Shown here: piece after piece, positions 39,345-52,615 of the stretch
Numbering within the stretch: the stretch's first letter is position 1
Layout: each line of letters opens with the position of its first letter
Source: Sphingopyxis sp. H073
GTDB lineage: Bacteria > Pseudomonadota > Alphaproteobacteria > Sphingomonadales > Sphingomonadaceae
DNA: 64,000 nt
NCBI RefSeq assembly: GCF_001468395.1
Contig: NZ_LNSG01000001.1
Span: forward strand, 248,001 to 312,000
Direction of reading: 5' to 3'
Position numbers and translations under genes: made by a program
The notes under the pieces: generated by a model
What the model was told of the DNA's origin: nothing
Databases searched by the model: none
What the model saw: only the letters and a program-made list of their open reading frames with translations

Positions 39345-40379
39345 TCAGCCGGCCCTCGCGTTCGCCAGCATGTCGAGTGCGACATCGACGATCATGTCCT
39401 CCTGTCCACCGACCATCTTGCGGCGACCGAGTTCGACCAGGATCGAGCGCGTGTCGATGCCATATTCGGCGCTGGCCTTTTCGGCGTGGCGAAGGAAGCT
39501 GGAATAGACGCCGGCATAGCCGAGGGTCAGCGTTTCGCGGTCGACGCGAACCGGCCGGTCCTGCAGCGGGCGCACCAATTCTTCGGCGGCGTCCATCAGC
39601 GCGTAGAGATCGCAGCCATGCTGCCAGCCATAACGGTCGGCGGCGGCGATGAAGACTTCGAGCGGCGCGTTGCCCGCGCCGGCGCCCATGCCCGCGAGCG
39701 ACGCGTCGACGCGGATCGCGCCATTCTGCACCGCGACGAGGCTGTTGGCGACGCCGAGCGAGAGATTGTGGTGCGCGTGGATGCCGCGCTGGGTTTCGGG
39801 TTTGAGCACGCGGTCATACGCCTGCAGCCGCGCCGCATATTGGTCCATGTTCATCGCGCCGCCGCTGTCGGTGACATAGACGCAGTGCGCGCCATAGTCC
39901 TCCATCAGCTTTGCCTGGCCCGCGAGCGCCCCGGGGTCCGACATGTGGGCCATCATGAGAAAGCCCGACACGTCCATGCCGAGCGTCCGCGCCGCCTCGA
40001 TATGCTGCTTCGATACATCGGCCTCGGTGCAATGGGTCGCGATCCGGACCGAGCGCACGCCCATGTCATAGGCATGTTCGAGGTCGTGGACGGTGCCGAT
40101 GCCGGGCAGCAGCAAGGTCGTGAGCACGCTATGCTCCAGCACCTCGGCGACCGCGCCGATCCAGTCCCAGTCGGTATGGGCGCCAAAGCCATAGTTGAAG
40201 GACGATCCGCTGAGCCCGTCGCCGTGGGCAATCTCGATCGCGTCGACTTTGGCGCGGTCGAGAGCCTTCGCAATCGCCTTCACATGGTCGAGGCCATATT
40301 GGTGACGAACCGCGTGCATCCCGTCGCGCAGCGTCACGTCCTGGATATAGAGTTTGGTCTGCGTCGGATCGAGGGTCAT
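39345..40379 (-). CDS. 4-hydroxy-2-oxovalerate aldolase
   Basis: A 344-residue class II pyruvate aldolase (BphI/DmpG/MhpE type) that splits 4-hydroxy-2-oxovalerate into pyruvate and acetaldehyde. The DRE-TIM metallolyase motif is VTLRDGMH (Arg, Asp) near residue 16; metal His ligands are in GIHAHHN near residue 200. The C-terminal communication domain channels acetaldehyde to the partner dehydrogenase. Its start overlaps the stop of that partner by four bases, matching the tight complex the two form. Confidence 0.94.
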
Positions 40380-41329
40380 GCCGGTGCCCCCACATGCAGG
40401 GTTGCGGCCATGCGTTCGGCGGTGCGAAGGGCGGCAGACGTCATGATATCGAGGTTTCCCGCATAGGCCGGCAGATAGTGCGCGGCGCCTTCCACTTCGA
40501 GGAAGATGCTGACTTTCAGCCCGGTAAAGTCCGAACGATCTCCCGCCGTCAGGCCGGGGATGTGCAGCGGCTTGTTCGATCCGAGGTGCTCGAACTGCAC
40601 TGCCTGCTTGAGACGGTATCCGGGGACATAGGTTTTGACCTCCTCGACCATGTCGAGCACGCTCTGCCGGATAGCGTCCTGGTCGGCGTCGTCGCAAAGG
40701 CAATAGACGGTGTCGCGCATGATCAGCGGCGGCTCGGCGGGATTGAGGACGATGATCGCCTTGCCGTTCGCGGCGCCGCCGACCTCGACGATCGCACGGC
40801 TGGTCGTCTCGGTGAATTCGTCGATATTGGCGCGCGTGCCGGGGCCGGCGCTTTTCGACGCGATAGATGCGACGATTTCGCCATAGTGGACTCTGGCGAC
40901 GCGGTTGACGGCATAGACCATCGGGATCGTCGCCTGACCGCCGCACGTCACCATATTGACGTTCGGGGCGTCCAGATGGGCGCCGCCGTTGACCGGCGGG
41001 ATCGTGTAGGGACCGATCGCGGCGGGGGTCAGGTCGATCACGCGCTTGCCATGGCTGCGCAATATCGCGTCATGACGGTGATGGGCCCCGGCGGACGTCG
41101 CATCGAAGACGATCTCGATATCGGCGAATTCGGGCATCGCGACCAGCCCGTCGATCCCTTCGGCGGTGGTCGGGACGCCGAGCCGCTGCGCGCGCGCCAG
41201 TCCGTCCGATGCTGCGTCGATTCCCACCATCGCGGCCATTTCGAGCGCGTTCGAAAGGCGCAGAACCTTGATCATCAGGTCGGTGCCGATGTTGCCCGAA
41301 CCGATGATCGCGACCTTGGTTTTGCCCAT
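40376..41329 (-). CDS. Acetaldehyde dehydrogenase, acylating
   Basis: A 317-residue CoA-acylating enzyme (BphJ/DmpF/MhpF) converting acetaldehyde, NAD and CoA to acetyl-CoA. The Rossmann motif is [12 protein letters not shown] and the nucleophile is Cys in [11 protein letters not shown] near residue 130. It works as a channelled pair with the aldolase. It starts only 3 bases after the stop of the hydratase gene, so the order is hydratase, dehydrogenase, aldolase. Confidence 0.95.
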
Positions 41330-41332
41330 CGT

Positions 41333-42118
41333 TCAGTGTCCCTTGTAGGAAAAGCTGCACGCGCCGATCCCGCCGACGGAGGCGTGAACCCGGTCGCCCG
41401 GCGTCAGCGCCACCATCGGGCCGAGCGCGCCCGCCAGCAGGATGTCGCCCGCCTTGAGCGGTTCGCCGCGCGCCGCGAGCGTCTGCGCGAGCCACGCGGC
41501 GGCATTGAGCGGATTGCCGAGCGCCGCAGCGCCGATCCCGGTCGAAACGACCGCGTCGTCGATCCGCATCTCCATCGGCGCGCGCTCGAGATCGAGACCG
41601 TCGAGCGACCGGCCGGTATCCGCCAGGACGAAGAAGGCGGACGAACCATTGTCGGCCACGGTGTCGGCAAAGCTGATTTTCCAGTCGGCGATGCGGCTGT
41701 CGACGATCTCGATCGCGGCATGAACGCTGGCGACCGCGGCGGCGACCTGTTCGGGCGTGGTGGCGGGGTCGGGCAGATCGTCGGCGAGGATGAAGGCGAT
41801 CTCTGCCTCGGCCTTCGGCTGAAGCGTGCGCGCCGGATCCAGATTGCCGCCGTCCGCAATCCGCATGTCGTCGAACAATACCCCGAAATCGGGCTGGTCG
41901 ACGCCAAGCTGGATCTGGACCGCCCTGGCGGTCAGTCCGGCCTTGCGGCCGACGATCCGGCGTCCTTCGCTTTCCCAGAAGCGCGTGTTGATCGTCTGCA
42001 CCGCATAGGCGCCCTCGGCGTCGACGGGATCGAGTCCGTCGCGCATCGGCGGCACCGCGCCCGATCGATAAGCGTCGCGCAGCCGCAGCGCGAGTTCGTC
42101 CCGGGTCGGTCTGGTCAT
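41333..42118 (-). CDS. 2-oxopent-4-enoate hydratase
   Basis: A 261-residue hydratase of the MhpD/BphH/XylJ type, FAH-like fold, adding water to 2-hydroxypenta-2,4-dienoate. Signatures include GRKAGLTARAVQIQLGVDQPDFG (in part), the acidic metal site KAEAEIAFIL and VDSRIADWKI. It leads the three-gene meta-cleavage lower pathway, which turns dienoates from catechol or phenylpropanoid ring cleavage into pyruvate and acetyl-CoA. No ring-cleavage dioxygenase or hydrolase is adjacent. Confidence 0.92.
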   Translation of the reverse strand: MTRPTRDELALRLRDAYRSGAVPPMRDGLDPVDAEGAYAVQTINTRFWESEGRRIVGRKAGLTARAVQIQLGVDQPDFGVLFDDMRIADGGNLDPARTLQPKAEAEIAFILADDLPDPATTPEQVAAAVASVHAAIEIVDSRIADWKISFADTVADNGSSAFFVLADTGRSLDGLDLERAPMEMRIDDAVVSTGIGAAALGNPLNAAAWLAQTLAARGEPLKAGDILLAGALGPMVALTPGDRVHASVGGIGACSFSYKGH

Positions 42119-42187
42119 CGGCGATATCCTCTTCCTGTCTGCGCGGTGCTAGCGCGATACGCCCCTTGGCACCAGCCGCCGGGCCGG

Positions 42188-42204
42188 ATATGTTCTTACC
42201 ATAT
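42188..42204. promoter_or_regulatory. Inverted repeat overlapping IclR gene start
   Basis: ATATG (42188-42192), 7 bases, CATAT (42200-42204) forms a short palindrome just before and over the ATG of the IclR gene, in the 84-base divergent region shared with the hydratase operon. A candidate autoregulatory operator; the arms are short. Confidence 0.35.
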
Positions 42205-42964
42205 GAGAAATGGGACGCCGCAGATTGCTTCGCTCACCCGGGCGCTCTTGACCCTGGAGGCCATGATTTCCGGGGGCAGAACGCGCAACCTGTCCGACGT
42301 GGCACGCGATCTCGGCATGCCTGTGGCGACGGTCCATCGTCAGGTAACGACGCTGGTGGCCGAGGGCTTTCTAGTCCGCCTCGCGAATGGCCATTATGCC
42401 GCCGGAGCGCGGCTCGCCCGTATGCTGGGCCATGTCGACGAGAAGCAGTTGATCGCCAGCGCGGCGGCTCCGGTCCTGCATCGCCTTGCCTCCCGGCTTG
42501 GCTGCGTCGTCCAGCTCGGCACGTTCGAGAACGACATGGTGACCTACCGGATCAAGACCGGCCAGGGGGCCAGCGACCTGTTCACCAAAGTGGGAATGCA
42601 GCTCGAGGCCTATTGCTCGGGAATCGGGAAGGTGCTCCTCGCGCATCTTCCGGAAGGGGAGCGGGAAGATTATCTGGCGGCTGGCCCCTTTCCCGCGCTC
42701 ACCCCGAACACGATCGTCGACCCCGACAGGCTGCGAATGGCGCTTCGGCACGTCAGGCAGCATGGCTTCGCTACCGACGATGGCGAGATCCACGATGGCA
42801 TTTTCTGCGTTGCGGTGCCGATCCATAGCGCCGCTGACGATCGCGTGCTTGCCGCGATTTCGGTCACCCGGCCGAAGCGGCCGGGGCGGCGCATGACGAC
42901 CGAGCGGACCGTCCATTATCTCGAGCAGGCGGCGCGGGAGATCGGGGCTGCGGCTTTCGCCTGA
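42203..42964 (+). CDS. IclR family transcriptional regulator
   Basis: A 253-residue IclR regulator: winged helix (ARDLGMPVATVHRQVTTLV near residues 36-54) and a C-terminal GAF-like effector domain (YCSGIGKVLLAHLPEGE; AISVTRP). It is divergent from the hydratase-dehydrogenase-aldolase operon and is its likely regulator, probably responding to an aromatic or dienoate intermediate. ATG at 42203 is at the edge of a small inverted repeat. Confidence 0.9.
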   Translation: MRNGTPQIASLTRALLTLEAMISGGRTRNLSDVARDLGMPVATVHRQVTTLVAEGFLVRLANGHYAAGARLARMLGHVDEKQLIASAAAPVLHRLASRLGCVVQLGTFENDMVTYRIKTGQGASDLFTKVGMQLEAYCSGIGKVLLAHLPEGEREDYLAAGPFPALTPNTIVDPDRLRMALRHVRQHGFATDDGEIHDGIFCVAVPIHSAADDRVLAAISVTRPKRPGRRMTTERTVHYLEQAAREIGAAAFA

Positions 42965-43782: not shown

Positions 43783-44616
43783 TCAGGTGATGAAGGGAAT
43801 GTCGCCCTCGGCCGTTTCGCCGGGCGCGAGCAGCGGAAGCGCTTTCAACCGCGCATAGATCGGCGTGAAATCGGTCTCGTCGGTTTCCTTCAGCAGATGC
43901 TCGAAACTCTCGATCACGAAATAGGTCGGCTGGAACTCGTCGAAGAGATAGTCGCTGCGCATCACGCGCGCGAGGTCGAACGACAGCCGCCGCGCGTCGG
44001 GAGACGTGACCGCATGGACGGTTTCGGCGATGCTCGACAGGAGGCCGGCGCCATAGGCGCGAATGCCGCCCGCCTCGCGCACCAGCCCGAATTCGACGGT
44101 GTGGAGGTAGAGCCGCCCGAGATAGTCGGCGGCGCCCAGCGTTTCGGCGCGCAGCCCCGCCTTGCCATAGGCAACGAGGAAGTCGGCGAAGACCGGGTTG
44201 GTGAGCATCGGCAAATGCCCGAACAGGTCGTGGAACATGTCGGGTTCCTCGCTGTAGTCGAGCGAATCCGCGCCGCGCAGGAAGTTGGCCGCGGGGAAGC
44301 GGCGTTCGGCGAGGTGCCGGAAAAAGGGTTCGTTGGGGATCACGCCCGGGACCGGCACGATCTCCCACCCCGTCGTCGCCTTGAGACGCGGGTTGAGGTC
44401 GGCGAGGTCGGGAATACCGGGCCCCGCGAGGTGCAATATGTCGAGCCCGTCGAGAAAGGCCTGTGAGGCGAAACCGCCCAGTGCCTGCGACTGGCGCGCG
44501 ACGAGCTGCTCCCACGTGCGATGGTCGTCGGCGCTGAACTGGCTCCAGTTCTGCGGCATCGTCCAGTCGGCCGCGACGCCCGCAGGCGGCGCTTCGAAAA
44601 CATGTGTTGCGGCCAT
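43783..44616 (-). CDS. phhA: Aromatic amino acid hydroxylase (annotatable as phenylalanine 4-hydroxylase)
   Basis: A 277-residue pterin-dependent iron(II) monooxygenase, catalytic domain only as in bacterial PAHs. Iron ligands are His129 and His134 (PDMFHDLFGHLP) and Glu175 (HTVEFGL). The pterin-side sequence YGAGLLSS is kept. The residue four before the Glu ligand, Trp in PAHs I can recall (RLYWYTVEFG), is Leu171 here (RLYLHTVEFG). That position is Phe in tryptophan hydroxylases and affects substrate choice, so Phe is not the only candidate substrate. Divergent from the Lrp regulator and kyn operon. The symbol follows the family name. Confidence 0.85.
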   Translation of the reverse strand: MAATHVFEAPPAGVAADWTMPQNWSQFSADDHRTWEQLVARQSQALGGFASQAFLDGLDILHLAGPGIPDLADLNPRLKATTGWEIVPVPGVIPNEPFFRHLAERRFPAANFLRGADSLDYSEEPDMFHDLFGHLPMLTNPVFADFLVAYGKAGLRAETLGAADYLGRLYLHTVEFGLVREAGGIRAYGAGLLSSIAETVHAVTSPDARRLSFDLARVMRSDYLFDEFQPTYFVIESFEHLLKETDETDFTPIYARLKALPLLAPGETAEGDIPFIT

Positions 44617-44750: not shown

Positions 44751-44819
44751 ACCTTTTGCGGGAAAGTTGGTTGTTTTCCTGTGGGGCGGACTGGCCGGTG
44801 TGCAGCCGGAGCAGGGAAG

Positions 44820-45287
44820 ATGGACAAGATCGACTGGAAAATCCTGACCGAGCTCGAGGGTGACGGACGCTTGTCGTTCGCCGACCTCAGCGAACGCGTG
44901 GGCCTTTCCAAATCGCCCTGCTGGTCGCGCGTGCGCGATCTGGAGGCCGATGGCGTGATCGGCGGTTATCACGCGCGGATCAGCCCCGCGGCGCTCGGGC
45001 TCGCGGTCCAATGCTATGCCGATGTTCGGATCAAGTTCGACGGCCACGCGGCGTTCGAGGCGGCGGCGCTCGCGCATCCGGCGATCATCGAATGCCACAC
45101 CACCGCGGGCGATAGCGATTATCTGCTGCGCATCTATGCGCGTTCGGTCGAACATCTCGACGAACTGCTTCGCAACGATCTGTCGAAGCTGCCGGGCGTC
45201 CACCGGCTGTCGACGACCGTCTGCCTGAAGACGATCAAACAACATGCGCCCCTGACACCATGGGCATCGGAAGGAGCGCGGGCGTGA
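44820..45287 (+). CDS. Lrp/AsnC family transcriptional regulator
   Basis: 155 residues. N-terminal HTH (LSFADLSERVGLSKSPCWSRV) and a C-terminal RAM domain with the ligand-binding GDSDYLLRIY segment near residue 97. Members next to kyn genes respond to tryptophan or kynurenine (KynR) and those next to phhA to aromatic amino acids; both neighbours are present here. Only 20 bases separate it from kynA, so it is probably the first gene of the operon. Confidence 0.9.
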   Translation: MDKIDWKILTELEGDGRLSFADLSERVGLSKSPCWSRVRDLEADGVIGGYHARISPAALGLAVQCYADVRIKFDGHAAFEAAALAHPAIIECHTTAGDSDYLLRIYARSVEHLDELLRNDLSKLPGVHRLSTTVCLKTIKQHAPLTPWASEGARA

Positions 45288-45306: not shown

Positions 45307-46215
45307 TTGAGCATCAGGCGATTTGTCGAGGACGGGATCGAAAGCTTCGAGGCCGAGATCGACGGCGAGAGGATCCAGTGGGACAAGGGATTGTCATACG
45401 CCCGGCATCTGCAAACCGAAAAGCTGCTCTCGTCGCAGGTTCCGGTGACCGACAAGCCCGACGAGATGCTGTTCGTCATCATGCACCAGACGATGGAGCT
45501 GTGGCTGAAGCTGGTGCTGCACGAGGCGCGGATCGCGGTCGCCGCGATCCAGGCCGACGACCTCGATCATGCGGGCAAGACGCTCGACCGCATTGCGACG
45601 ATCCAGCGCCACATGATCCATAGCTGGGAGGTGCTGGCGACGCTGACCCCGCATGATTTCCTGACATTTCGCGGCTATCTGCGCAAAGCGTCGGGGTTCC
45701 AGTCGCACCAGTATCGCGAGCTTGAATATCTGCTCGGCAACAAGCGCGAGGATCTGCTCCTCGTCCACGCCGACGATGCCGAAACCCATGCGCGGCTGAG
45801 CGCGGTGCTGAACGCGCCGTCTTTCTATGACGAGGTGCTGAAACTGCTTGCGCGACGCGGCTTCGCGATCCCCGCCTCGCATCTCGAACGCGACTGGAGC
45901 CGGCCTTATGAGGCGTCCGAGGCGATCGAGGATGCCTGGCTCGCCGTCTATTCGGACGTCGAGCACTATTGGGATCTCTACATGCTGGCCGAGAAGGTCA
46001 CCGCGCTCGAATATTATTTCCAGGAATGGCGCTTCAAGCACATGAAGACCGTCGCGCGCGTGATCGGGCAAAAGCAGGGCACCGGCGGATCGGCCGGGGT
46101 CAATTATCTGGTCAAGGCGCTGAACCTCAGCTTTTTCCCCGAACTCTGGGCGATGCGCACGCGCATGGTCGCACCGAAGGCCGGCGGCAATTATGCCGAC
46201 GGAGATGCCTCGTGA
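45307..46215 (+). CDS. kynA: Tryptophan 2,3-dioxygenase
   Basis: A 302-residue haem dioxygenase opening the indole ring of tryptophan to N-formylkynurenine. Signatures are MLFVIMHQTMELWLKL (distal His region), FRGYLRKASGFQSHQYRELE and GTGGSAGVNYL. The TTG start at 45307 is chosen because GGGGAGGA is 5 bases upstream and no ATG exists before the conserved region. First enzyme of the kyn operon; its stop overlaps the kynB GTG by four bases. Confidence 0.94.
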   Translation: MSIRRFVEDGIESFEAEIDGERIQWDKGLSYARHLQTEKLLSSQVPVTDKPDEMLFVIMHQTMELWLKLVLHEARIAVAAIQADDLDHAGKTLDRIATIQRHMIHSWEVLATLTPHDFLTFRGYLRKASGFQSHQYRELEYLLGNKREDLLLVHADDAETHARLSAVLNAPSFYDEVLKLLARRGFAIPASHLERDWSRPYEASEAIEDAWLAVYSDVEHYWDLYMLAEKVTALEYYFQEWRFKHMKTVARVIGQKQGTGGSAGVNYLVKALNLSFFPELWAMRTRMVAPKAGGNYADGDAS

Positions 46216-46841
46216 AAATATGGGATATCTCGCAGGTCGTGCGACCCGACATGCCGGTCTGGCCGGGCGAGCCGCCGGTCCGCGTGATGCGCAACGTCGA
46301 GATCGGTGACGGCTGCCCGGTCAACGTCGGCGAGATCGACGCGCCGCTCCACGCCGGCACCCATGCCGATGCGCCCTTGCATTATGCTCCCGATGGCGCC
46401 GCGAGCGCCGATTGCGACCTGGCGCCGTACATCGGCCGCTGCGTGCTCGTCGACGTGCGCCATGCGGCGGCGCGGATCGAGATGGGCGACGTCGACTGGG
46501 ATGCGGTCGCGGGCGCCGAGCGGGTGATCTTTCGGACCTATGATCGCTTTCCCGCCGACGTCTGGGACAGCGATTTCACCGCGATCGCGCCCGAGGTTGT
46601 CGCCAGGCTGCGCGAGGGCGGGGTCCGGCTGGTCGGGACCGACTCGCCGTCGCTCGATCCCGAAACATCGAAGACGATGGACGCGCATCACGAAATTCTC
46701 GCGGGCGACATGCGCATCCTCGAGGGACTCGTACTCGATGATGTGCCGCCAGGTGACTATGAACTGATCGCGCTGCCGCTGAAGATCGCGGCCGCCGATG
46801 CCAGCCCCGTCCGGGCGATCCTGCGGGAGCTTGCGAAGTGA
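46212..46841 (+). CDS. kynB: Kynurenine formamidase (KynB type)
   Basis: A 209-residue metal-dependent cyclase-fold formamidase that hydrolyses N-formylkynurenine to kynurenine and formate. The metal motif is DAPLHAGTHADAPLHY (HxxxHxD), and DSPSLDPETSK and HHEIL follow. GTG start at 46212 overlaps the kynA stop (GTGA); its own stop overlaps the kynU start. Confidence 0.93.
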   Translation: MKIWDISQVVRPDMPVWPGEPPVRVMRNVEIGDGCPVNVGEIDAPLHAGTHADAPLHYAPDGAASADCDLAPYIGRCVLVDVRHAAARIEMGDVDWDAVAGAERVIFRTYDRFPADVWDSDFTAIAPEVVARLREGGVRLVGTDSPSLDPETSKTMDAHHEILAGDMRILEGLVLDDVPPGDYELIALPLKIAAADASPVRAILRELAK

Positions 46842-48073
46842 AGGAAATTCTCGCCGAAGTCGCCGATCTCGACGCGCGCGATCCGCTGGCGCCGTTTCGC
46901 GACGAGTTCCGGCTGCGCGACGGGCTGATCTATGTCGACGGCAATTCGCTCGGCGCGCTGCCCAAGGCGACCGCGGCGCGCCTCGCGGCGACGGTGACCG
47001 AGGAATGGGGCGAGGGGCTGATCACCTCGTGGCTCGGCGCCGACTGGGTCGGGGCACCGCAGCGGATCGGCAACAAGATCGCGGCGCTGCTCGGCGCGAA
47101 GGCCGGCGAGGTGATCGCGGCGGACTCGACCTCGGTGAACATCTTCAAGGCGGTGACCGCGGCCGCCTCGCTCCGCCCCGACCGCGCGGTGATCCTGTCG
47201 GAGACGACCAATTTCCCGACCGACGTCTATATGATGCAGGGGATCGAGGCATTCAGCGGCGGGCGGCTGAAATCGGTGACGGTCGATCCCGCCGACGTGC
47301 TGGGCCGGCTGGACGAGGATGTCGCGGTGCTGCTGCTGACGCAGGTGCACTACAAGTCCGGCCTGATCCGCGACATGGCCGAGGTGACGCGCCGCGCGCA
47401 CGAAAAGGGCGTGCTAATCGTCTGGGATCTCAGCCACAGCGCCGGCGCGATCGAGGTCGACCTCAACGGTGCGAAAGCCGACTTCGCGGTCGGCTGCGGC
47501 TATAAATTTCTGAACGGCGGCCCCGGCGCGCCCGCCTTCCTGTTCGCGGCGGAGCGCCACCATGACGCGATGCCCGTCCTGTCGGGCTGGTTCGGTCATG
47601 CGAGCCCCTTCACCTTCGAGGAGGATTATCGCGCCGCCGCGGGCGTGACGCGCTTCCTCTGCGGGACGCCGCCGGTGCTGGGGCTGACCGCGCTCGAATG
47701 CGGCATCGACCTGATGGCGCGCGCCGACATGCGCGAGCTGCGCAAGAAGTCGGTCCGGCTCGGCCAGCTCTTCATCGAGCGGATGACCGCGCGCTGCGGC
47801 GAGTTCGGCTTCGAACTTGCGAGCCCCGCCGATCCCGAGCTGCGGGGGAGCCAGATTTCCTACGCACACCCCCATGGTTACGAGATGGTGCAGGCGCTGA
47901 AGGAGCGCGGCGTGATCGGCGATTTCCGCGCGCCCGACATATTGCGATTCGGCCTGACGCCGCTTTATCTGCGCTACGCCGACGTCGTCGAGGCGGTCGA
48001 GCGGTTGCGCGACATTTGCGTGACGCGCGCGTGGGACAAGCCCGAATATCGCGTCCGCGCGGCCGTGACCTGA
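46838..48073 (+). CDS. kynU: Kynureninase
   Basis: A 411-residue PLP enzyme cleaving kynurenine to anthranilate and alanine. The Schiff-base Lys is in GCGYKFLNGGPGAPAF; PLP phosphate and ring contacts are in DSTSVNIFK and WDLSHSAGAIEVDL. GTG start at 46838, overlapping kynB by four bases. No kynurenine 3-monooxygenase gene lies in this window, so the 3-hydroxyanthranilate branch is not indicated here. Confidence 0.95.
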   Translation: MKEILAEVADLDARDPLAPFRDEFRLRDGLIYVDGNSLGALPKATAARLAATVTEEWGEGLITSWLGADWVGAPQRIGNKIAALLGAKAGEVIAADSTSVNIFKAVTAAASLRPDRAVILSETTNFPTDVYMMQGIEAFSGGRLKSVTVDPADVLGRLDEDVAVLLLTQVHYKSGLIRDMAEVTRRAHEKGVLIVWDLSHSAGAIEVDLNGAKADFAVGCGYKFLNGGPGAPAFLFAAERHHDAMPVLSGWFGHASPFTFEEDYRAAAGVTRFLCGTPPVLGLTALECGIDLMARADMRELRKKSVRLGQLFIERMTARCGEFGFELASPADPELRGSQISYAHPHGYEMVQALKERGVIGDFRAPDILRFGLTPLYLRYADVVEAVERLRDICVTRAWDKPEYRVRAAVT

Positions 48074-48083
48074 GGAGGCGCCG

Positions 48084-49094
48084 ATGCTCGAACTCCCCAA
48101 ATCGAAGGTCGCCGCGGTCCAGACCGCCCCCGTCTTCCTCGATCCTGCGGCGACGGTCGACAAGGCGTGCGCGCTGATCGCCGAGGCGGCGGGCAATGGC
48201 GCGAAGCTCGTCGCCTTTCCCGAAGTGTTCGTCGCGGGCTATCCCTATTGGAACTGGCTGATGACGCCGGTCGAGGGGAGCGAATGGTTCGAACGGCTCT
48301 GCCGCGCCGCGATCACCGTGCCGGGGCCCGAGGTCGAGCAATTATGCGCGGCGGCGCGCGCGCACGACTGCACCGTGGTGATCGGCGTCAACGAACGCGA
48401 CCCGCGCGCGCTCGGTACGCTCTACAACACCAACCTCGTCATCGGCGCTGACGGGACGTTGCTCGGCCGGCATCGCAAGCTCGTGCCCACCTGGGCCGAG
48501 AAGCTGACCTGGGCGGGCGGCGACGGCGCGAGCCTGCGCGTCTATGACACGCCGGTCGGCCCGCTCGGGACGCTCGCGTGCGGGGAGAATACCAATACGC
48601 TCGCGCGCTTCGCGCTGCTGTCGGCGGGCGAGCTGGTCCATGTCGCCAATTATATCTCGCTGCCCGTCGCGCCTGCTTCGTACAATATGGCCGACGCGAT
48701 CCGCATCCGCGCGACCGCGCACAGCTTCGAAGGCAAGCTGTTCACGATCGTCGCCTGCTCGACCGTCAGCGAGGAGATCATCGCGGCGATGAGCGCCGGG
48801 CGGCCCGCAAACCGCGCGCTGCTCGAGCGGCGGCAGAGCGCCTTTTCGGGCGTGATCGGCCCCGACGGCAATCTCGTCGGCGACCCGCTGATCGACGACG
48901 AAGGCATCGTCTATGCCGAGATCGACCTTTCGCGCTGCATCCAGCCCAAGCAGATGCACGATATTATCGGCGCCTATAACCGCTTCGACATTTTCGACCT
49001 GCGCATCGACCGGCGCCCGCGTACGAGCGCAAGCTGGCGCGATGACGAAGTGCCGCCCGCCGACGACGGCGGTGCGGAGCCGCCCACGGCTTGA
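48084..49094 (+). CDS. Nitrilase-superfamily carbon-nitrogen hydrolase
   Basis: 336 residues with the nitrilase triad Glu47 (AFPEVF), Lys132 (RHRKLVPT) and Cys166 (LACGENTN). The CGENTN context and length are those of branch 1 nitrilases; related branches are amidases. Within an operon that begins with kynABU and continues with ring cleavage, two roles are possible: hydrolysis of a nitrile such as indole-3-acetonitrile, or release of ammonia from an amide formed when an aminated ring is opened. GGAGG precedes the ATG by 6 bases. Confidence 0.88.
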   Translation: MLELPKSKVAAVQTAPVFLDPAATVDKACALIAEAAGNGAKLVAFPEVFVAGYPYWNWLMTPVEGSEWFERLCRAAITVPGPEVEQLCAAARAHDCTVVIGVNERDPRALGTLYNTNLVIGADGTLLGRHRKLVPTWAEKLTWAGGDGASLRVYDTPVGPLGTLACGENTNTLARFALLSAGELVHVANYISLPVAPASYNMADAIRIRATAHSFEGKLFTIVACSTVSEEIIAAMSAGRPANRALLERRQSAFSGVIGPDGNLVGDPLIDDEGIVYAEIDLSRCIQPKQMHDIIGAYNRFDIFDLRIDRRPRTSASWRDDEVPPADDGGAEPPTA

Positions 49095-49114: not shown

Positions 49115-50251
49115 ATGGCCAGCGTCGTGTCAAAACCCGATCCCCGCGATGCGCAGCTGGGGCGCTCGCGTGTCACCGATACCGACGAGCTCCGGCAATT
49201 CTACGCCGAGCTTGGCGCGCATAATGCCGACGCCTTCTGGAACCGCGCCAACGCGATCGAGCCGTGGGAGCCGCAGAGCCGGTACAATCCGACGCTGTGG
49301 AAATATGCCGAGATGCGCGAGCTATGCCTGCGCGCGGTCGAGCTGGTGCGGCCCGAGGATGCCGGGCGCCGCGTCGTGACCTTGCTCAACGACAGCGATG
49401 CGGGGCGTGCGAACACCGCGGTCTGCGGCTGGCTGTTCAGCGGCCTGCAGGCGATGCGCCCCGGCGAGATCACCCCCGCGCACAAGCATACCGCCTCGGC
49501 GCACCGCTTCATCATGGAAGGCGGCGGTGCCTATACAGTTGTCGACGGGCATCATGTCACGCTTGGCAAGAATGATTATGTGCTGACGCCGAACGGGTGC
49601 TGGCACGATCATGGCGTCGCCGCGGACGGCCAGCTTTCGATCTGGCAGGACGGGCTCGATATCCCGCTCATGAACTGCATGGAGAGCAATTTTTATGCGG
49701 TCTATGACGCCCCGGCGCAGACCCCGGGCTTTCCCGCCGACGATCTGCCGCTTTCCTATGGCGGTGCGATGCAACCCGACGGCGTCGAGGCGTGGGCGCG
49801 GCCCTTTTCGCCGACGATGGTCTATCGCTGGGAACAGGTGCGCGACGCGATCTGGAATTTCGCCAAGGTGTCGGGCGGCTCGCCCTTCGACGGGCATATC
49901 ATGCGCTATTCGAACCCGCAGACCGGCGGCTGGGCGCTCCAGACGATGGGCGCGCACATGCAGATGCTGAAGGGCGGGCTGCATACGCGCGCGCACCGGC
50001 ACACCGGCAACGTCGTCTATAATGTCGCGCAGGGCCGCGGCTATTCGGTGATCGGCGGGCGGCGCTTCGATTGGGCGGAGCATGACATTTTCTGCGTGCC
50101 CGCCTGGACCTGGCACGAGCATGTCAATCTCGACCCGTCGGAAGAGGCGTTCCTCTTCTCGTTCAACGACTTCCCCGTGATGGAGGCGCTCGGCGTCCGG
50201 ATCGAGGAAGCGCTCGAAGACAAGGACGGCCATCAGCAGGTTCAGGCCTGA
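49115..50251 (+). CDS. Gentisate 1,2-dioxygenase family ring-cleavage dioxygenase
   Basis: A 378-residue bicupin. The first cupin holds the iron ligands His123, His125 (PAHKHTASAH) and His164 (CWHDHG); the second cupin keeps HTRAHRHTGN and TWHEHVN. The family cleaves gentisate, salicylate, 1-hydroxy-2-naphthoate or 5-nitrosalicylate between the carboxylate- and OH-bearing carbons. Substrate is not readable, but placement after kynU points to an anthranilate derivative. ATG at 49115 follows AAGGAGAGG; an earlier in-frame start overlaps the upstream stop. Confidence 0.88.
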   Translation: MASVVSKPDPRDAQLGRSRVTDTDELRQFYAELGAHNADAFWNRANAIEPWEPQSRYNPTLWKYAEMRELCLRAVELVRPEDAGRRVVTLLNDSDAGRANTAVCGWLFSGLQAMRPGEITPAHKHTASAHRFIMEGGGAYTVVDGHHVTLGKNDYVLTPNGCWHDHGVAADGQLSIWQDGLDIPLMNCMESNFYAVYDAPAQTPGFPADDLPLSYGGAMQPDGVEAWARPFSPTMVYRWEQVRDAIWNFAKVSGGSPFDGHIMRYSNPQTGGWALQTMGAHMQMLKGGLHTRAHRHTGNVVYNVAQGRGYSVIGGRRFDWAEHDIFCVPAWTWHEHVNLDPSEEAFLFSFNDFPVMEALGVRIEEALEDKDGHQQVQA

Positions 50252-50284: not shown

Positions 50285-51193
50285 ATGCGCTTCGTGACCT
50301 ATCGCACGGCCGAAACCGGGCCGCGCCTCGGACTCGTCCACCAGGGACTCGTCATCGACGTCGAATATTTCGGCGACGCGATCGGGCATGATCTGCCCGC
50401 GACGATGCTCGACTTCATCGATCTGGGTCCGGTCGCGCTCGGCTTCCTGCAGGAGGCCGTCGCGGCTGCGACGCCCGCCGATCTGGTCGGCACGTCGCTG
50501 CCCGAGGGCAATGTGACCCTGCTCGCGCCGATCCCGCGCCCGCGCAAGAATATCTTCGGTATCGGGCTGAACTATACCGAGCATGTCGCGGAATCGGCGC
50601 GCGCGCTCGACACGTCGGACGCGCTGCCGAAAGAGCCGGTGATTTTCTCGAAGCCGCCGACCGCCGTGGTCGCGTGGAACGACCCGATCCGCCACAATGC
50701 GAAGGTGACGCAGCAGCTCGACTGGGAAACCGAGCTGGCGGTGGTGATCGGGCGTACGGCGCGCCACGTGGCCGAGGCCGACGCACTCGACCATGTGTTC
50801 GGCTATACCGTTATCAACGATGTGTCGGCGCGCGACTGCCGCCGTGCGGGGCAGTGGATCGTGTCGAAGGGGCAGGACAGTTTCGCGCCGATGGGCCCCG
50901 CGATCGTCACCCGCGACGAAATCACCGATCCGCAGAACCTCAATATGTGGACCAGGGTCAACGGGGTCGAGAAGCAGAACAGCAACACGCGTTTCATGCT
51001 GTTCAACGTCGCGCAGCTCATCGCCGACATATCGGGCGTGATGACGCTGGAGCCCGGCGACATCATCGCCACTGGCACACCCGCCGGCGTCGGCGCGGGC
51101 CGCGACCCGCAGGAGTTCATGTGGCCGGGCGACGTCGTCGAATGCCATGTCGAGGGCATCGGCACGCTGCGCAACCCGATCGTCGCCATCTGA
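50285..51193 (+). CDS. Fumarylacetoacetate hydrolase (FAH) family protein
   Basis: A 302-residue FAH-fold hydrolase. The metal site is in QLDWETELAVVIG (Glu ligands), with IFGIGLNYTEH, TVINDVSARD and GDIIATGTPAGVG as family signatures. These enzymes cut beta-diketo acids such as fumarylpyruvate, maleylpyruvate or acylpyruvates into pyruvate plus an acid. In this operon it would act on the ring-cleavage product. It is far shorter than true fumarylacetoacetase (about 420 residues). Confidence 0.92.
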   Translation: MRFVTYRTAETGPRLGLVHQGLVIDVEYFGDAIGHDLPATMLDFIDLGPVALGFLQEAVAAATPADLVGTSLPEGNVTLLAPIPRPRKNIFGIGLNYTEHVAESARALDTSDALPKEPVIFSKPPTAVVAWNDPIRHNAKVTQQLDWETELAVVIGRTARHVAEADALDHVFGYTVINDVSARDCRRAGQWIVSKGQDSFAPMGPAIVTRDEITDPQNLNMWTRVNGVEKQNSNTRFMLFNVAQLIADISGVMTLEPGDIIATGTPAGVGAGRDPQEFMWPGDVVECHVEGIGTLRNPIVAI

Positions 51194-51204
51194 AAGACCG
51201 AACC

Positions 51205-51957
51205 ATGACCCGCCCTTTCCGCGTCGGCCAGATCGTGCCGAGTTCGAACGTCACGATGGAAACCGAAATCCCCGCGATGCTCCGCGCCCGCGAAGCGATC
51301 CTGCCCGACCGCTTTACCTTCCACAGCGCGCGCATGCGGATGAAGAAGGTGACGAAGGAGGAACTGGCGGCGATGGACGCCGATTCCGACCGCTGTGCCT
51401 TCGAGCTGTCCGACGCTGCGGTCGACGTAATGGGCTATGCCTGCCTCGTCGCGATCATGAGCATGGGCCCAGGCTATCACCGCGTGTCGGAAAAGCGGCT
51501 GCATGGGCGGACCGTCGAAAACGGCCACGCCGCGCCGGTGGTGACGAGCGCGGGGGCGCTGGTCGACGGCCTGCACGCGCTCGGCGCGAAGCGGATCGCG
51601 GTGGTCGCGCCCTATATGAAGCCGCTCACCCAGCTCGTCGTTTCGTACATCGAAGGCGAGGGGATCGCGGTGCAGGATTCGCTCGCGCTGGAGATTCCCG
51701 ACAATCTCGAGGTCGCGGCGCAGGATCCCGCGAACCTTCTGGCTCACTATAAGAAGCTCGACCTTGCGGGGATCGATGTGCTGGTGCTGTCGGCCTGCGT
51801 CCAGATGCCCTCGCTGCCCTCGATCCAGAAGGTCGAGGATGAGGTCGGGCTACCCGTCGTTTCCGCGGCGGTCTGCACGACGCACCAGATGTTGAAGCGG
51901 CTCGGGCTCGAAGCGCGGGTGCCGGGTGCCGGCGCGCTGCTTTCGGGACGCTATTGA
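51205..51957 (+). CDS. Maleate cis-trans isomerase family protein
   Basis: A 250-residue Asp/Glu-racemase superfamily protein. It has PSSNVTMETE at 12-21 and the two catalytic cysteines of maleate isomerase, Cys80 (MGYACLVAI) and Cys198 (LSACVQMPSL). Maleate isomerase converts maleate to fumarate and is known from nicotinate degradation after maleamate amidohydrolase. Its presence argues that the operon produces maleate. Start 11 bases after the FAH stop. Confidence 0.9.
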   Translation: MTRPFRVGQIVPSSNVTMETEIPAMLRAREAILPDRFTFHSARMRMKKVTKEELAAMDADSDRCAFELSDAAVDVMGYACLVAIMSMGPGYHRVSEKRLHGRTVENGHAAPVVTSAGALVDGLHALGAKRIAVVAPYMKPLTQLVVSYIEGEGIAVQDSLALEIPDNLEVAAQDPANLLAHYKKLDLAGIDVLVLSACVQMPSLPSIQKVEDEVGLPVVSAAVCTTHQMLKRLGLEARVPGAGALLSGRY

Positions 51958-51973
51958 TCGAAGGGGACGGGCG

Positions 51974-52615
51974 GTGAAGCTCTACAGCTATTTCCGGTCA
52001 TCGGCCGCCTATCGCGTGCGGATCGCGCTGGGGCTCAAGGGGATCGCCGCCGACCAGGTCGCGATCAACCTGCTCGCGCGCGAGCCGCTGCCGGGCTATC
52101 GGCAGGCGGTCAATCCGCAGGGCTTCGTCCCCGCGCTCGACACCGACGCCGACGGGCTGATCGTCCAGTCGCTCGCGATCATCGAGTATCTCGACGAAAC
52201 GCATCCGGAACCCGCGCTGTTGCCGAAACGCGCCGCGGACCGCGCCTATGTCCGCGCCGCCGCGCAGCTCGTCGCCTGCGACATCCATCCGCTCGCGAAC
52301 CTCAGGGTGCTTCGATATCTCAAGCGCGATCTGGGGCAGAGCCAGGATGCGATCGACGACTGGTACCGGCATTGGGTCGAGGACGGTCTCACGCGGCTCG
52401 AGGCTTTCGTGGCAGCGGAAGGAAAGAGTGGGCGCTTCCTGTTCGGCGACGCGCCGACGATGGCCGATTGCGTCCTTGTTCCGCAGCTTTTCAACGCGCG
52501 TCGGCTCGCGTGCGATCTGGCGACCATTCCGACGTTGGTCGCGATCGACGCCCGCTGCACCGGGCTCGATGCGTTTCGTCAGGCGCATCCGGACGCGCAG
52601 CCCGACGCGGTCTGA
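51974..52615 (+). CDS. maiA: Maleylacetoacetate/maleylpyruvate isomerase (zeta-class GST)
   Basis: A 213-residue glutathione transferase of the zeta class. The active-site motif YFRSSAAYRVRIAL (SSxxxRVRIAL) is at residues 6-19, and the N-domain ends NPQGFVPAL and IIEYLDETHP. It isomerises the cis double bond of maleylacetoacetate or maleylpyruvate using glutathione. GTG start at 51974. It ends the operon; convergent with the amidohydrolase gene 11 bases on. Confidence 0.9.
   Translation: MKLYSYFRSSAAYRVRIALGLKGIAADQVAINLLAREPLPGYRQAVNPQGFVPALDTDADGLIVQSLAIIEYLDETHPEPALLPKRAADRAYVRAAAQLVACDIHPLANLRVLRYLKRDLGQSQDAIDDWYRHWVEDGLTRLEAFVAAEGKSGRFLFGDAPTMADCVLVPQLFNARRLACDLATIPTLVAIDARCTGLDAFRQAHPDAQPDAV

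Follow-up and report, generated by a model that had tools for sequence, protein, structure and literature searches.

The window analyzed here, a stretch of 64,000 nucleotides from Sphingopyxis sp. H073 (contig NZ_LNSG01000001.1, positions 248,001 to 312,000), carries a gene for an aromatic amino acid hydroxylase (AAAH) beside a kyn operon, and the question raised by this locus is on which substrate the hydroxylase acts. The AAAH gene (43783-44616, minus strand) encodes a 277-amino-acid protein with the motif GRLYLHTVEFGLV, assigned on the basis of TIGR01267, PF00351 and its fold, which we propose to be a tryptophan 5-hydroxylase. In a pairwise alignment with the C. violaceum phenylalanine hydroxylase (PAH; chain 1ltu), which starts with query residue 15 at chain position 24 and runs without gaps as far as Leu171, this leucine (codon 44104-44106, minus strand) corresponds to position 180 of the chain, the Trp of RLYWYTVEFG; the site is thus Trp180 of the C. 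violaceum enzyme and Trp179 of the Xanthomonas one. The replacement of Trp by Leu, pointed out in the preliminary description, was confirmed and is beyond chance, since Trp was found in 75/75 of the other homologues read at this site (Trp-type) and Leu in all 46 distinct sequences of the window protein's own kind (Leu-type). The same contig of this genome encodes another AAAH, about 91 kb away, whose motif is the canonical RLYWYTVEFG (G000:C1:199744-200550).

The window AAAH exceeded the curated cut-off of TIGR01267 (bacterial phenylalanine 4-monooxygenase; 304.5 bits, cut-off 264.75), matched PF00351 (biopterin-dependent AAAHs) with 144.2 bits and failed TIGR01270 (tryptophan 5-hydroxylase, TPH; 125.2 bits, cut-off 705.5). 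It stands outside the TPH family as defined by TIGR01270, and it may work like a TPH; its selectivity site holds neither the Trp typical of TIGR01267 nor the TPH-type Phe. With the bacterial PAHs (TIGR01267; C. violaceum, X. campestris) it shares the common AAAH fold, the His/His/Glu iron site (H129, H134 and E175, retained in every Leu-type and Trp-type row read) and 45-49% identity to the C. violaceum structures. The AlphaFold model of the protein is confident (pLDDT 91.5) and, among the 50 matches listed, reached TM scores of 0.87-0.90 with C. violaceum PAH and 0.72-0.75 with human TPH1. Besides this similarity to TPH1, the window AAAH has in common with animal TPH1/TPH2 the proposed reaction and a non-Trp residue at the specificity site; it differs from them in the Leu found where the animal enzymes usually have Phe (according to the accessible part of PMC11885754) and in its length of 277 residues, without an N-terminal regulatory domain.

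In all counts identical AAAH or KynA rows were taken once (e.g., L229, whose AAAH and KynA both repeat those of L018), and an AAAH fragment of the window's own genome (L162_1) was excluded, which lowered the number of Leu-type sequences from 47 to 46. Among the best 80 loci listed from a scan of genome contigs, Leu was present in all of the 24 nearest (59-73% identity; sphingomonads) and Trp in all of the remaining 56 (49% identity or less). Within the order, 396 genomes were searched and 30 loci were read for the residue, which gave 14 Leu-type genomes. Each of these 14 genomes had 2-3 AAAH matches, compared with more than one match in 7/317 of the other matching genomes of the order (listing read by eye), and the two further copies that were read, in the window's own genome and at L023, were Trp-type. 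In a tree of 62 rows, the 36 Leu-type rows included grouped as a single clade (stem 0.71, support 100/100), for which one change of the residue suffices, and the association with kynA described below rests on that single origin. No close Leu-type relative was found in a collection of plasmids (45 records, all below 60% identity). A pattern search for non-Trp AAAHs in 398 genomes of the phylum, in which most of the motif was fixed and other variants can therefore be missed, gave a single match outside the window (G515), which was rejected as a chance frame and no AAAH.

The gene neighborhoods separate the two types. For all 46 distinct Leu-type sequences, kynA lies within 11 kb of the AAAH gene, compared with 1/75 Trp-type sequences (L023, where a Leu-type copy stands in between); flanking sequence of at least 8 kb on either side was available for only 42 of these 75, which makes the absence of kynA less certain for the others. 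The preliminary description had allowed that Leu at this site might be usual in homologues next to homogentisate genes only; the split of the homologues by adjacency to kynA gave the opposite, Leu being read only near kynA. The neighboring kyn operon that it had named is likewise real and comprises, on the plus strand: (i) kynA, encoding a divergent tryptophan 2,3-dioxygenase (TDO) (45307-46215; TIGR03036, 1.4e-106, 355.7 bits, below the cut-off of 390.7), (ii) kynB, encoding an arylformamidase (46227-46841; TIGR03035, 237.8 bits, cut-off 223.05), and (iii) kynU, encoding a kynureninase (46838-48073; TIGR01814, 294.3 bits, cut-off 246.4; solved kynureninase 1qz9, 4e-127). Between the divergent AAAH gene and kynA lies a gene for an Lrp/AsnC-family regulator (44781-45287, plus strand; NF008370, 1.6e-30, under its cut-off), and an Lrp-like match (66% or more) was found beside the AAAH at 20/24 of the nearest contig loci. 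At most loci the AAAH gene stands directly 5' of kynA; most Leu-type AAAHs are codirectional with it, the matched stretches of the two genes lying 21-72 bp apart, and at L019 the two ORFs share a 4-bp overlap. In the window, L004 and L005 the AAAH gene is divergent across the Lrp gene, and at L011 it is found 8.2 kb away on the opposite strand; the linkage of AAAH and kynA therefore outlives rearrangement. A pterin carbinolamine dehydratase is present in 14/14 Leu-type genomes, and in Sphingobium cyanobacteriorum (L006:9995-11149) the Leu-type AAAH is fused to a pterin-4a-carbinolamine dehydratase domain (PF00351 and PF01329).

The substitution at Leu171 is accompanied by others in the pocket region. 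In C. violaceum numbering (Cv), the residues of the 36 Leu-type rows compared with those of the 75 others are as follows: Leu (36/36) vs. Trp (75/75) at Cv180, Trp (22/36) or Tyr (14/36) vs. Tyr (75/75) at Cv179, Ser or Asn (35/36) vs. Leu (73/75) at Cv131, and Leu (35/36) vs. Ile (72/75) at Cv201, while Ile at the otherwise near-invariant Cv196 is replaced by Ala in 35/36. According to the accessible part of PMC11885754, the W179F and W179Y variants of XcPAH form 5-hydroxytryptophan (5-HTP), whereas W179L, W179I and W179M form none, and the authors concluded that an aromatic ring is required at position 179. The engineered 5-HTP-forming enzymes, as given in the accessible part of the literature, carry Phe at the same site (CvPAH L101Y/W180F, XcPAH W179F and CtAAAH W192F); the window enzyme is altered at that position too, but its change is natural and to Leu. 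As XcPAH W179L yields no 5-HTP, Leu alone does not explain the specificity, which, with several pocket-region positions changed in the Leu clade, would need more than Leu171. The Trp found one residue before the site in 22 of the 46 Leu-type sequences might take over the aromatic role in those 22; since the window AAAH keeps Tyr there, this is no general answer. The argument of the preliminary description that Leu would act here like the Phe of TPH is not established in view of the XcPAH W179L result, while its direction, towards tryptophan, is likely to be right for the window AAAH, Leu having been read only near kynA and residues of KynA tracking the AAAH.

The latter residues are Arg33 (codons of Arg33-His34 at 45403-45408, plus strand) and Arg126 (codon at 45682-45684, plus strand). 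Arg126 was present in 46/46 AAAH-linked and 0/8 AAAH-less KynA proteins, and Arg33 in 46/46 and 1/8, respectively; most of the AAAH-less proteins have Gly at position 126. Among the positions fixed in the linked proteins, those nearly lost without the AAAH numbered 2/147 in KynA (R33 and R126), 0/75 in KynB and 0/147 in KynU, in a comparison that keeps repeats (48 KynA rows instead of 46 because of the own genome, and further repeated rows for KynB and KynU). KynA positions 124, 204, 206, 216 and 263 shift with the AAAH less sharply, and each of Gly28, Lys91 and Lys256 is missing from at least half of the AAAH-less KynAs. His34, which corresponds to Tyr27 of Xanthomonas TDO, was rejected as a mark of 5-HTP use because all 8 AAAH-less KynAs carry it too.

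The genomes of the order with a KynA of at least 70% identity are exactly the 14 Leu-type ones. In six further genomes KynA has 61-68% identity and the stretches read contain no Leu-type AAAH; weak AAAH matches (E 1e-75 to 1e-82) are present in five of them, and none is listed for G066. In this first set Arg126 was found in every AAAH-linked KynA and in 0/6 AAAH-less ones, R126 having been picked from many positions before the hold-out. The hold-out genus searches (114, 40 and 11 genomes, overlapping earlier ones) gave 13 new KynA-clade loci, among which 12 KynAs are new, as L229 repeats L018; the 11 loci beside a Leu-type AAAH all have Arg126, and the two without AAAH have Ser126 and Gly126. 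These KynAs come mostly from one genus and include one clearly new AAAH-less lineage (L234), L235 being a near copy of L179. In the KynA tree, 5/6 AAAH-less KynAs fell among the AAAH-linked ones and L180 at the base; in a larger tree L180 was also placed inside the linked group (L002 and L084 were left out of the KynA trees). Counted on well supported branches, the co-variation amounts to 3 independent contrasts (p 0.25 in a sign test); counting all branches gives 6. Some AAAH-less rows sit on long branches, and two of the genomes (G830 and G853) were read only within 1.5 kb of kynA. No other hydroxylase was recognized beside kynA at six AAAH-less loci (L198-L203; judged by eye from the ORF starts). 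At one of them (L201) a thioredoxin-reductase-like flavoprotein is encoded beside kynA.

According to the accessible part of PMC11904535, the indole pocket of MarE, a protein of the TDO fold, is lined by Tyr24, Val27 and Leu28 of the neighboring subunit together with Phe51, and the lid helix and loop of this fold (Pro149-Ala150-Ser151-Gly152 in human TDO) belong to the active site. By alignment, Arg33-His34 of KynA fall in the first of these pocket segments and Arg126 immediately before the lid loop. The location of AAAH-linked residues at active-site segments favors a changed substrate of the dioxygenase, and the co-variation of R126 and R33 thus favors hydroxylation ahead of the KynA step; the same signal could instead mark a contact between the AAAH and KynA proteins. 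The co-variation also speaks against the view that the AAAH has remained a phenylalanine hydroxylase (or a mixed Phe/Trp one) co-regulated with tryptophan catabolism. The enzyme does pass TIGR01267 and retains the fold and the iron ligands of that family, and two enzymes encoded in the cluster, a maleylacetoacetate-isomerase-family glutathione S-transferase (GST) and an FAA hydrolase, are of kinds that homogentisate breakdown employs as well; on the other hand, the 14 Leu-type genomes all have a further AAAH match (Trp-type in the own genome and L023), the specificity site and neighboring positions are changed, and homogentisate dioxygenase was named in 0/13 of the neighboring proteins scanned. 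We consider a retained phenylalanine hydroxylase unlikely.

Downstream of kynU, on the same strand, the window contains a predicted ring-cleavage module, encoding: (i) a nitrilase-superfamily hydrolase, the proposed amidase (48084-49094; PF00795; TIGR04048 under its cut-off; nearest solved nitrilase 8uxu, 6e-65), (ii) a gentisate-1,2-dioxygenase-like bicupin, the proposed 5-hydroxyanthranilate dioxygenase (49115-50251; 3bu7, 4e-152), which stays under the cut-offs of both TIGR02272 (283.7 vs. 442.1 bits) and NF049978 (252.6 vs. 650 bits), (iii) an FAA-hydrolase-family hydrolase (50285-51193; PF01557, 247.6 bits), (iv) a maleate cis-trans isomerase (51199-51957), and (v) the maleylacetoacetate-isomerase-family GST (51971-52615; TIGR01262, 263.8 bits, cut-off 171.05). 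The isomerase matched 4fq7, a molecule named maleate cis-trans isomerase, at 6e-101 and over its full length (residues 6-252), with both Cys regions (YAC and SAC) aligned, whose cysteines we take to have a role in maleate isomerase.

The gene content of this cluster, its linkage, the single clade of its AAAHs with their intact iron site and altered pocket-region residues, and the co-variation of KynA are established, and the conserved AAAH-kyn cluster, often accompanied by ring-cleavage genes, looks like a 5-hydroxytryptophan route. We propose, with a probability of roughly 0.57, that a tryptophan 5-hydroxylase feeds the kyn operon and that ring cleavage of 5-hydroxyanthranilate then leads to fumarate; all of the substrates, and the sequence in which the lower steps follow one another, are our inference. 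The AAAH would be a pterin- and iron-dependent tryptophan 5-hydroxylase, derived within the sphingomonads from a bacterial phenylalanine hydroxylase and recruited into the kynurenine operon. From tryptophan it would form 5-hydroxytryptophan, which co-adapted KynA together with KynB and KynU would turn, via 5-hydroxykynurenine, into 5-hydroxyanthranilate and alanine. In clusters that have the lower genes, the ring would be opened between C1 and C2 by the gentisate-dioxygenase-like enzyme; because C2 of 5-hydroxyanthranilate bears the amino group, the cleavage product would be the amide of maleylpyruvate, from which the FAA hydrolase and the nitrilase-like amidase may release pyruvate, ammonia and maleate, the last being converted to fumarate by the maleate isomerase. 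A maleate isomerase and a C-N hydrolase in one cluster are what we infer such chemistry, with an amino group on the cleaved ring carbon, to call for. The full form of the scheme, i.e., a parallel, hydroxylated kynurenine pathway with a dedicated tryptophan 5-hydroxylase, a KynA re-tuned to 5-HTP (Arg33, His34, Arg126) and an amide-forming gentisate-type cleavage yielding fumarate, pyruvate and ammonia, is put forward tentatively, at somewhat less than even odds.

The ring-cleavage genes are less widespread than the upper part of the cluster. Nitrilase and dioxygenase are both present at 20/24 of the nearest contig loci (exceptions: L006, L018, L019 and L022), and the GST is less constant, with a match near 6/24. 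Among the 396 genomes of the order, the dioxygenase (72% identity or more) occurs in 9, namely in 8/14 Leu-type genomes and in 1/382 others (G003). No dioxygenase match at 1e-30 was found in 6/14 Leu-type genomes that hold AAAH-kynABU, so the ring-cleavage step is not general. At L018, L019, L022, L155-L157 and L160, the stretch read contains AAAH-kynABU but nothing that matches the ring-cleavage module. In such lineages the product might be biosynthetic or signalling (5-hydroxyanthranilate or a derivative), the catabolic module having been added or kept only in some; the six genomes and the four contig loci named above agree with this, two counts that overlap, as the AAAHs of L019 and L022 are those of two of the six genomes, and 5-hydroxyanthranilate-derived metabolites are reported from Streptomyces in the accessible part of PMC6102551. 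Against it stand the 20/24 loci with both lower genes, and no biosynthetic genes were recognized beside kynU at L018 and L019 (ORFs by eye), which leaves a product of this kind with a low probability.

Several further clusters resemble the module. In G003 the complete set of nitrilase, dioxygenase, FAA hydrolase and maleate isomerase genes is accompanied by an IclR gene and, as judged by eye, a TonB-type receptor (L144, G003:C1:1018000-1036000), and no kyn or AAAH match was found in the 18 kb read around it. The loci L145-L152 contain clusters of a distant nitrilase (35-37%), a gentisate-dioxygenase-like protein (52-55%) and an FAA hydrolase without kyn matches, L145 with a styrene-monooxygenase-like protein and a flavin reductase in addition; possibly the same ring-cleavage chemistry is fed there from another substrate. 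At L004 the cluster is otherwise orthologous, but its dioxygenase (L004:4332) has 55% identity compared with 71-82% in the others and, in a quick tree (SH-aLRT 96), groups with another clade otherwise found beside an FAA hydrolase and a distant nitrilase, which looks like an in-place replacement by an enzyme of equal function.

Other fates of anthranilate and hydroxyanthranilate were searched for in 15 genomes (the 14 Leu-type ones and G003). AntA (TIGR03228) was over its cut-off in 0/15, with weaker Rieske matches to this model in 13/15 (best, 197 of 671.9 bits in G003). 3-HAO (PF06052) exceeded its cut-off in 1/15, the own genome, and in none of the 14 others, G061 giving a weaker match (22.2 of 25 bits). 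In neither search did a control genome exceed the cut-off, so that these negatives stand without a positive control. The 3-hydroxyanthranilate lower pathway was therefore rejected as the general route; the own genome may use it, as its 3-HAO gene (C4:105085) belongs to a separate operon and so provides a second possible hydroxyanthranilate route there. This operon region (L218, G000:C4:97000-115000) also encodes an aldehyde dehydrogenase, an FAA-domain protein and, by eye, ABC-transporter-like proteins. Adjoining the AAAH cluster of the window are lower meta-cleavage genes (39345-42118, minus strand, and 42197-42964, plus strand), including those for an HMGL/DmpG-type aldolase, an acetaldehyde dehydrogenase and an FAA-domain hydratase-like protein, with an IclR regulator; the genes of 39345-42964 could serve the 3-HAO route.

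The order of the upper steps admits one further variant, in our judgment unlikely, in which the AAAH acts after KynA and KynB on kynurenine, likewise an aromatic alpha-amino acid, to give 5-hydroxykynurenine and, through KynU, the same 5-hydroxyanthranilate: it would leave the lower module unchanged and would suit both the several altered pocket-region positions and the loss of tryptophan hydroxylation in XcPAH W179L (accessible part of PMC11885754), but the residues that track the AAAH lie in KynA and in neither KynB nor KynU, which is what a hydroxyl group introduced before the dioxygenase step would lead one to expect, and the AAAH gene is directly 5' of kynA at most loci.

The proposed hydroxylation of tryptophan itself, followed by the kyn enzymes, sets the cluster apart from known systems in a few respects. 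The kynurenine pathway to anthranilate uses the same three enzymes in the same order (kynABU), to which clusters of the window type add the hydroxylase and, in many cases, gentisate-type lower genes, with AntA over its cut-off in none of the genomes searched. Nocardia opaca has a route that leads from anthranilate through 5-hydroxyanthranilate to gentisate (Cain, 1968, according to the accessible part of PMC4539516). This route and the proposed one would both have 5-hydroxyanthranilate as an intermediate and a gentisate-type ring opening, but the hydroxyl group is placed on anthranilate there and is proposed to be placed on tryptophan here, where the amine would be lost as an amide after cleavage. 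In the lower nicotinate pathway, NicF is a maleamate amidase and NicE a maleate isomerase; the proposed route would also end in amide hydrolysis and maleate isomerization, with an amidase of the nitrilase family.

In the open-licence literature, no description of an AAAH-kyn 5-hydroxytryptophan catabolic pathway was found. A report of tryptophan hydroxylation by C. violaceum goes back some 70 years, as stated in the accessible part of the literature, and the authors of a 2022 review knew of no described gene for a bacterial tryptophan hydroxylase (PMC9048412). Work on 5-HTP production, as far as the accessible sources cover it, uses engineered PAH or animal TPH, and the window AAAH, if the proposal is true, would be a natural single-domain candidate for this purpose. 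The arginines of KynA make the 5-hydroxytryptophan idea directly testable. Were it true, a phenylalanine hydroxylase would have become a tryptophan hydroxylase without acquiring Phe at the gate, and these sphingomonads would possess a new route of tryptophan catabolism, one that can easily be mistaken for a kynurenine pathway with a PAH and gentisate genes beside it.
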